Below, one piece after another: positions 13,278 to 14,553 of a DNA stretch of 64,000 nucleotides; position 1 is the stretch's first letter, and every line of letters begins with the position of its first letter. Location of the stretch: assembly GCF_014218295.1 (NCBI RefSeq), contig NZ_AP023287.1, forward strand, positions 4,774,001-4,838,000, written 5' to 3'. This stretch comes from Mycolicibacterium litorale (lineage in GTDB: Bacteria > Actinomycetota > Actinomycetes > Mycobacteriales > Mycobacteriaceae). The notes below the pieces were generated by a model. The model saw only the letters and a list, made by a program, of their open reading frames with translations, did not search any database and was not told the origin of the DNA. A program made the translations under genes and the position numbers.

Positions 13278-13291
13278 GGGTGGTTCCCCGC

Positions 13292-13347
13292 CGAACGTGC
13301 GGTGAATGCGACTTTTCGCCCGATTTCTCGCACTGAGCGCACGCTCG
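13292..13347 (+). repeat. 56-bp palindromic element, left copy
   Basis: Begins CGAACGTGCG and ends CGCACGCTCG. The outer 20-base arms pair at 16 of 20 positions, so it can fold as a long imperfect hairpin. It aligns without gaps to the reverse complement of 14210-14265 at 45 of 56 positions, including a fully conserved GATTTCTCGC core. It lies between echA19 and the DUF559-type gene. Confidence 0.85.
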
Positions 13348-13381
13348 ACGCGCTGTCGGTACCCCTCGGCACACTCCCCGC

Positions 13382-14218
13382 ATGGGGGAGCCATTCATCG
13401 GCAGTGAGGCCATCGCGTCGGGCGCGCTGACGCCCTACGCGCTGCGCAGTCGTTTCCGCGCGATCTACCCGGACGTCTACGTGCCGCCGGACCTCGAAGT
13501 GACAGCGACCCAACGCGCTGAGGCAGCGTGGCTGTGGACGCACCGCCAGGGCGTGGTCGCCGGCCGGTCGGCGGCGGCGATGCACGGCGCGAGATGGGTC
13601 GACGCCTCGAAGCCGGCCGAGGTGCTGTGGCCCAACCGCCGCCCGCCGCCCGGCCTGCGGACGTGGTCGGACCGCGTAGGCGACGACGAAGTCGAGATGG
13701 TCGACGGTGTCCGGGTCACGACACCGGCCCGCACCGCACTCGACATCGCGGCGCGATACCCGTTCGGCCGGGCGGTCGCGGCGATCGACGCGCTCGCCCG
13801 CGCCACACACCTCAAGGTCCCCGATGTCGAACTCCTGGCCGAGCGGTACCGCGGCCGCCGCGGAATCCGCAACGCGCACAACGCCCTCGGCCTCGTCGAC
13901 CCGGGCGCCGAATCCCCCAGGGAGACGTGGCTGCGGCTACTGGTCGTCCGCAACGGCTTCCCTGCCCCGCAGACCCAGATCCCGGTGTACGACGGATACG
14001 GCCAACTCGTCGCCGTCGTGGACATGGGCTGGCAGGACATCAAGGTGGCCCTGGACTACGAAGGCTCCCACCATCTCGGGCCGGACCGGTTCAACAAGGA
14101 CATCCATCGCCACGAGGCAATCACCGAACTCGGGTGGATCGACATCCGGGTCACCTCACGCGACACCGAGGGCGGCATCATCGCCAGGCTGAGATCCGCA
14201 TGGCGCCAGCGAGCGTGA
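13382..14218 (+). CDS. AbiEi/DUF559-like protein with nuclease-fold C-terminus
   Basis: 278 residues. The N-terminal about 60 residues look like the winged-helix found in AbiEi-type antitoxins (SGALTPYALRSRFRAIYPDVYVPP). The C-terminal about 100 residues resemble the DUF559 / Vsr-like PD-(D/E)xK fold: E177 and E181, D214 in AVVDMGW, then the KVALDYEGSHH strand with E227, and GWIDIRVT. Two inverted 56-bp palindromes bracket it, and the right one supplies its stop codon. No paired toxin gene is next to it. Function unknown; a nuclease role is inference from fold motifs. Confidence 0.8.
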   Translation: MGEPFIGSEAIASGALTPYALRSRFRAIYPDVYVPPDLEVTATQRAEAAWLWTHRQGVVAGRSAAAMHGARWVDASKPAEVLWPNRRPPPGLRTWSDRVGDDEVEMVDGVRVTTPARTALDIAARYPFGRAVAAIDALARATHLKVPDVELLAERYRGRRGIRNAHNALGLVDPGAESPRETWLRLLVVRNGFPAPQTQIPVYDGYGQLVAVVDMGWQDIKVALDYEGSHHLGPDRFNKDIHRHEAITELGWIDIRVTSRDTEGGIIARLRSAWRQRA

Positions 14219-14265
14219 GCCCACTGCGAGAAATCCGGCCGAAATTCGCAGTGGGCGCACGTTCG
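14210..14265 (-). repeat. 56-bp palindromic element, right copy (inverted)
   Basis: Reverse-complement partner of 13292-13347. Its inner arms GCCCACTGCGA and TCGCAGTGGGC are perfectly complementary; the outer 20-base arms match at 18 of 20. The DUF559-like gene's TGA stop (14216-14218) lies inside it. The element abuts the 3' end of the small secreted-protein gene (14275). Confidence 0.88.
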
Positions 14266-14274
14266 GGGTGAACG

Positions 14275-14553
14275 TCAGCGGTAGTGGCCGTGGAACACGT
14301 AGGGCCGCGGCGCGAACCAGGGGCCGTAGTGCGGCCGCGGGCCGTGGAACGGGTGACCCGGGTGAAACCAGGGACGGTACTCGGCGAATCCGGTGTCCAC
14401 CGCCGCGACGTGGGCTGCGGACACGGCCGTCGGGGCCGGCACCGCCGCCTGCGCCGCCCCACTCCCCATGCCGACCGTCACGGCGAGCACGCCGCCGCAC
14501 AGCATCGCACCACCGACCGACCGACGCACACGGTGCGTATGACCGACATTCAT
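14275..14553 (-). CDS. Small secreted His/Pro-rich protein
   Basis: 92-residue protein with a Sec signal peptide: positively charged start MNVGHTHRVRR, hydrophobic core GAMLCGGVLAVTVGMGSG and a likely cleavage after AAQA (about residue 36). The mature part is rich in His, Pro, Trp and Tyr (WFHPGHPFHGPRPHYGPW), which might bind metal. ATG at 14553 is supported by AAGGAG eight bases upstream. Unrelated to the flanking catabolic genes and of unknown function. Confidence 0.7.
   Translation of the reverse strand: MNVGHTHRVRRSVGGAMLCGGVLAVTVGMGSGAAQAAVPAPTAVSAAHVAAVDTGFAEYRPWFHPGHPFHGPRPHYGPWFAPRPYVFHGHYR

Follow-up and report, generated by a model that had tools for sequence, protein, structure and literature searches.

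Introduction

As described in PMC6006769 and PMC3733652, each palindrome type of a REPtron (TnpA-REP) belongs to a single gene that its copies flank, and a genome has several such types; solo palindromes lie in intergenic regions and the gene is mostly stationary. According to PMC6006769, the Actinobacteridae in its sample have tnpA-Y1 genes of subclass 1.1 only.

Here we analysed a stretch of DNA of 64,000 nucleotides (the window), comprising bases 4774001-4838000 of the 5.63-Mb single-contig genome of Mycolicibacterium litorale (G000). It contains a gene for an AbiEi-like/nuclease protein enclosed by two palindromic elements. With modest confidence, we favour the reading that the gene and its two flanking palindromes are one unit of a large actinobacterial family, and that the protein is matched to its own palindrome type, which it would recognise, cut and spread. 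Among the papers listed in searches of one open-access library, none, judged by title and the opening lines of the abstract, describes genes of this kind together with palindromes of their own; a description may exist elsewhere.

A nuclease-like gene enclosed by two palindromic elements

A repeat search of the window detected two 57-nt arms, at 13291-13347 and 14210-14266, which are 81% complementary and lie 862 nt apart. Both are T1-type elements, imperfect palindromes that follow the scheme CGARCGTG-N4-CACTGCGA-N16-TCGCAGTG-N4-CACGYTCG, and neither is assigned to a strand. Compared to shuffled sequences, the right element forms a strong hairpin (z -5.2 on the + strand and -4.8 on the - strand), and the left element, whose two half-sites (CGARCGTG-N4-CACTGCGA) are degenerate, forms a weaker one (z -1.2 on + and -3.1 on -). 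Between them lies one complete ORF on the + strand (13382-14218, 278 aa), and its TGA stop codon (14216-14218) falls within the right element, which overlaps the gene end. The original prediction, made from the letters of the window, had described an inverted 56-bp pair agreeing at 45 of 56 positions, each member an imperfect hairpin, around one complete gene whose stop codon comes from the right element, and all of these features were recovered.

Three of the four neighbouring ORFs encode an enoyl-CoA hydratase (called echA19 in the original prediction), a cytochrome P450 and an AMP-binding enzyme; the fourth is small and has no Pfam match. No AbiEii nucleotidyltransferase toxin gene and no intron or mismatch-repair gene was found among these four. 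A small secreted-looking ORF of 92 aa without a Pfam match lies at 14275-14553 on the - strand and separates the unit from the P450 gene. Unlike in the window, the P450 follows at most 95 bp behind the unit in the 27 other echA19-adjoining units with a P450 match. Sub-threshold matches to the Rfam family Ms_IGR-8 were observed at 14217-14278 (-) and 14200-14258 (+).

The protein and its relatives

A Pfam scan of the 278-aa protein gave AbiEi_1 just above the cut-off, MTES_1575 below the cut-off and a weak SbcD_C match; neither Y1_Tnp nor DUF559 was among the matches. In the earlier label "DUF559/AbiEi-like", the name DUF559 is the original prediction's own. No NCBIfam family matched the protein and a profile search of solved structures returned no match, and the PADLOC AbiEi models did match. 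In the predicted fold, residues 1-173 (13382-13900, +) resemble an AbiEi antitoxin and constitute a putative DNA-binding part, and residues 177-278 (13910-14215, +) resemble Vsr and the catalytic domain of I-Bth0305I and carry E181, D214, D225, E227, H231 and D240. The best fold match was the homing endonuclease I-Bth0305I, an EDxHD enzyme; the EDxHD enzymes are described as a family of homing endonucleases. Position 214 was D in 139 of 140 homologues, position 227 was E in 70 and D in 68, and E181, D214, H231 and D240 were present together in 128/140. Both residues named in the original prediction (D214 and E227) are thus present, in a model of the nuclease-like type that it expected. Overall, the model joins an AbiEi-like half to a nuclease of the Vsr/I-Bth0305I type with conserved residues.

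Homologues were detected at E<=1e-10 in all 118 genus genomes searched, paralogues counted. G000 itself holds 11 matches, which are 31-57% identical to the protein, itself excepted. A class-wide profile search at E<=1e-15 detected the protein in 132 of 197 genomes and in 73 of 90 genera, and at least 5029 homologues scored E<=1e-5 among the 7999 candidates scored; most of the 120 homologue names listed read "hypothetical protein". A phage or plasmid vehicle was rejected: 50,697 phage records gave a single partial match and plasmid records gave five distant matches (32-36% identity) on replicons of 0.29-11.9 Mb typed as non-mobilizable.

The best fold match and the PADLOC matches would also fit a selfish homing or defence system, with a nuclease directed at foreign or empty alleles and palindromes that shield or label its own. 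We consider this very improbable, because an AbiEii-like gene is absent among the four neighbouring ORFs, distant solo palindromes would not be expected and phages yielded only the one partial match.

Matched palindromes flank homologous genes

To compare flanks, homologous loci were chosen by protein alone; the units come largely from the best protein matches and are not a random sample. Palindromes with 20-bp arms (>=16/20 paired) were present upstream of 48 of 78 homologous genes and at the gene end in 38 of 78, compared to 8 of 1836 control stretches, a few of which may overlap a unit. When repeats of one locus were removed, the counts were 46/75 upstream and 37/75 at the gene end. Among 140 full-ORF units, 138 had enough flank for a direct comparison of the two sides (partial loci such as L056 and L115 were excluded). 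The upstream and downstream repeats matched (>=28/40) in 104 of these 138 mycobacterial loci, compared to 94 of 1099 mixed pairs and none of 138 gene-interior controls; a convincing pair was missing (<26/40) in 26 of the 138. These results bear out two expectations of the original prediction, namely that gene and repeats form one unit and that the element is enriched at this gene family.

In the 95 best-matched units, the downstream element overlapped the stop codon in 70 and the upstream matched stretch started 71-130 bp before the start codon in 84. The repeats were clearly direct in 25, clearly inverted in 22 and undecided in 48, so the inverted arrangement seen in the window is not general.

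Matched flanks were also observed beyond the mycobacteria. The best matches of the class-wide profile search and seven further loci gave 27 loci, of which L371 was dropped for its short flank, and the flanks matched (>=28/36) in 20 of the remaining 26, compared to 5 of 650 mixed pairs. The named loci with matched flanks include those of Aeromicrobium, Knoellia, Tsukamurella and Arthrobacter. The flanks of the Nonomuraea locus do not match; hence four of the five plasmid-record matches have matched flanks. Two loci looked different: a homologue in G081 (L234) lies between the arms, at -219 and +108, of a perfect inverted repeat of 52 nt that is unlike the usual elements, and a homologue at G000:C1:4374500-4375234 (L051, L053) is matched in two stretches, has repeats that agree weakly and is possibly a decaying unit.

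That unrelated terminator hairpins lie beside the gene by accident is hardly credible. The left element does rise barely above shuffles on the + strand (z -1.2), and solo copies often stand directly after stop codons. The control rates for palindromes, for flank matches and for other genera nonetheless exclude chance, the copies share sequence and not merely hairpin shape, and the co-divergence reported below contradicts it too.

Palindrome type follows the protein

The sequence of the element differs widely between units. The T1 type (CGARCGTG..CACTGCGA) was found in the clade of the window, a GCCAGTAACGC.. type in L139-L141, and a T5 palindrome, GAGACTACGGAAGTTGAC, flanks another unit of G000 (L049); double palindromes such as GTCACGCTAGCGTGAC lie beside some units. 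When the left element of one unit was compared with the right element of another (>=28/40), 92% of 52 pairs matched at 85-100% protein identity and about 1% of 500 sampled pairs matched below 50% protein identity, compared to 75% within units. Each unit's own pair was then set against the pair formed with its nearest neighbour of <70% identity: the own pair won in 99 cases, lost in 27 and tied in 12 (n=138; Wilcoxon p about 1e-13). By these comparisons palindrome type co-diverges with the protein, which is what matched protein-DNA pairs would give.

The main alternative explanation is that the palindromes are operators and terminators of the gene: the AbiEi-like half would repress its own gene through them, regulator and operator would co-evolve, the nuclease would have an unrelated role and other machinery would have spread the solo copies. 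In Streptococcus, AbiEi binds inverted repeats and regulates its own expression, and such autoregulation would account for the co-divergence; the AbiEi_1 match just above the cut-off, the AbiEi-like fold of residues 1-173 and the upstream stretch 71-130 bp before the start codon (84/95 units) agree with it as well. An operator would leave unexplained the second matched copy at the far end of the gene, over the stop codon in 70/95 units, the dispersed solo copies whose presence varies between relatives, and the coincidence of unit borders with palindromes in three compared pairs. On this evidence we regard the operator explanation as unlikely.

Solo palindromes lie at intergenic sites

The original prediction had anticipated further copies of the element, and these were found. 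G000 has 23 copies of the T1 half-site CGARCGTGNNNNCACTGCGA (<=1 mismatch), of which 20 lie beyond the unit, and none of the reversed pattern. At least one copy was present in 94 of 118 genomes. The median count was 9 in the 41 genomes with a close protein (best E about 1e-105 or better) compared to 1 in the 77 others (p about 1e-8). T5 half-sites occur 17 times in G000, four in the T5 unit and 13 outside it; elsewhere G058 has 15, G044 has 6 and G055 has 5, and the other 46 of the 50 genomes have at most 2 (reversed controls 0-1, and 0 in G000). Sixteen solo places, in 15 stretches of G000, were viewed: both half-sites were present at 13, one at 2 and none at 1. The solo copies commonly lie directly behind stop codons, and their numbers are low, tens at most.

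Two search patterns were discarded. The T2 half-site GTAACGCCACGGCGG matched in 47 of 50 genomes, with reversed controls often equally high, and was not used as evidence (G062 and G018 stand out among the 50 genomes); a looser pattern for scanning the genome was too unspecific. Two local arrangements were also recorded. In G111, which has the closest protein, three tandem T1 palindromes about 80 bp apart lie upstream of the unit (L287). In G000:C1:4563600-4568000 (L316), about 960 bp separate a T1 from a T5 solo palindrome, and the stretch between the two holds no convincing nuclease homologue.

Four relatives were searched for ten of the solo sites of G000, and five gave an alignment across the join. 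At one of these five the palindrome is common to G000 and G111, and G058 and G044 are cleanly without it. At another it is common to G000 and G058, G044 and G009 are without it, and G111 has a different palindrome, GCGATTTCGGCGCG..., instead. The GCGATTTCGGCGCG... palindrome is present in relatives at two further sites of G000 T5 copies, and at one of them G009 has neither. At the fifth aligned site, G111 and G044 are without the T5 copy of G000. No target-site duplication was seen at the five aligned sites, and no cut site was identified. Presence or absence and exchange of palindromes at aligned sites indicate that palindromes come and go at intergenic sites and that families share sites. 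A palindrome of the form GATTTCGGCGCG...CGCGCCGAAATC was noted at intergenic sites of G000 T5 copies in L335, L339, L343 (G111) and L341 (G044).

The solo copies do not fit the present units in every genome. G044 carries 13 T1 half-sites, yet its unit palindrome has diverged, and G055 has T5 copies, yet no T5-type protein above 47% identity. Thirteen other genomes have a T5-type protein at least 60% identical, and several T5 half-sites are found only in G058 and G044, where the palindromes beside the T5-type genes have drifted from the T5 sequence. Across 44 genomes, the cognate trend between solo copies and the present unit was modest (rho -0.32, p 0.03).

The unit mostly stays in place

Of the 61 close units (>57% identity), echA19 lies no more than 200 bp upstream in 30 and 1.1-2.3 kb upstream in five. 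Of the remainder, two are flipped at the echA19-P450 locus (L071, L126), one has the P450 side only and 23, two of them with short flanks, have neither neighbour. In total 38 of the 61 are at the echA19-P450 locus, and judged by this distribution the window unit is old there and not a recent arrival. The refuting outcome named in the original prediction, one shared place for the unit in all relatives, is thus borne out in part. Since the window unit has been kept at one locus in many relatives, movement of the whole unit is rare.

Some echA19 loci are without a unit. A survey of 29 genomes, mostly picked because their unit seemed to be elsewhere, gave a match in 28, and in 8 of these 28 loci the P450 follows 25-107 bp behind echA19 with no unit between. 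A different palindrome lies there in at least four of these eight loci. The empty sites expected by the original prediction therefore exist, but not all of them are clean. In G125, the echA19 locus has a solo T1-like palindrome and no P450 match. Palindromes of the GAGCAGACGC/GCGTCTGCTC type, one copy of which differs, were observed just behind echA19 and before the P450 at L289, L290, L305 and L311, in genomes without the unit; they are possibly another family with its own gene.

We compared flanks in 153 unit pairs with at least 75% protein identity. Both flanks were shared in 111, one in 19, and both crosswise, as in flipped units, in 8; the 15 pairs that share neither flank involve 13 units and were scored by DNA similarity only, so divergence may inflate their number. 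For three pairs of units situated at different places, the similar stretch extends to the palindromes' outer ends and stops there; the one exception is a unit without a left palindrome, where similarity begins at the palindrome's inner edge.

Borders of this kind could also belong to a small transposon, with the palindromes as its terminal repeats and the solo palindromes as MITE-like relics, and the 15 pairs sharing neither flank in either orientation and the loci without a unit would be consistent with it. We think a transposon distinctly improbable: 38 of 61 close units sit at one locus, direct repeats are about as frequent as inverted ones, an odd arrangement for terminal inverted repeats, the few sites that were aligned show no target-site duplication, and G000 has several unlike homologues (11 matches, 31-57% identity) rather than many copies of one.

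A proposed mechanism of palindrome spread

Together, the sequence comparisons suggest a REP-RAYT analogue run by an unrelated enzyme, whose binding, cutting and movement of palindromes we infer. The N-terminal half would recognise the cognate palindrome, which might be folded into a hairpin or cruciform or might be a duplex to which a dimer binds, and the nuclease half would cut at or near the palindrome borders. Repair or re-joining would then copy or move the palindrome to other intergenic sites, or maintain existing copies, and the same processes would occasionally flip or move the whole unit. Cutting without strand transfer would make the spread dependent on host repair, which is the weakest step of the proposal.

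A RAYT was considered as the mover. The RAYT-type profile Y1_Tnp has no match in G000, and it was found in 10 of 50 genus genomes. Since G000 and 40 of the 50 genus genomes are without it, a RAYT is not the likely mover here. In our proposal this protein, and not another enzyme, would cause the dispersal. The chances are only slightly better than even for the broader proposal, that actinomycetes disperse palindromes through a class of systems of their own, where a fusion of AbiEi and nuclease, and not a transposase, recognises and spreads its cognate palindrome.

If this is correct, these units would be a second, unrelated solution to the problem solved by REP-RAYT systems, widespread in the class and taking the place held by RAYTs in other bacteria. 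A very large protein family, mostly "hypothetical protein" among the names listed, would gain a role, and there would be an explanation for intergenic palindrome families, including one that is perhaps listed as an sRNA. The units would also offer nucleases already matched to their DNA in a natural series, whose recognition could be read from sequence and tested directly.

Comparison with known systems

The catalogued Mycobacterium sRNA Ms_IGR-8 (RF02470) exceeded its cut-off in 4 of 41 genomes compared to 0 of 14 control genomes, and the right element of the window matches it below threshold on both strands. Ms_IGR-8 is catalogued as an sRNA; matches on two strands fit a DNA palindrome equally well, and it may be a copy of such a palindrome type.

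The Vsr-like fold with conserved catalytic residues that is predicted here is shared with EDxHD enzymes and Vsr. In contrast to I-Bth0305I and Vsr, the nuclease forms one protein with an AbiEi-like half and has a link to palindromes, and no intron or mismatch-repair gene lies among the scanned neighbours. By fold and Pfam match, the N-terminal half resembles AbiEi antitoxins of type IV toxin-antitoxin systems, and Rv2827c. It differs from AbiE in the added nuclease domain and in the absence of a toxin partner among the scanned neighbours in the window.

In the TIRtrons of PMC3733652, long repeats, which exist as families too, likewise stand on both sides of a gene, but that gene is a Y1 transposase. 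The closest likeness is to REP-RAYT systems as described in PMC6006769 and PMC3733652: one stable gene, flanking palindromes, dispersed solo copies and one palindrome type per protein. Here, too, the gene is flanked by a dispersed, gene-specific palindrome family, with an imperfect fit of the solo copies to the present unit. The differences are that the enzyme is an AbiEi-Vsr-type nuclease fusion and not an HUH Y1 transposase, and that the palindromes are about 55-65 nt long with no GTAG at the hairpin foot; by eye, the feet of T1 and T5 are mostly CGCCGA/TCGGCG, and the GTAG of T5 lies within the stem and not at the foot. Since defining features of REP-RAYT and of AbiE toxin-antitoxin systems are both lacking, we class the system under neither. 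More cautiously, it could be described as a variation on the REPtron theme. By analogy, the system probably works like REP-RAYT.
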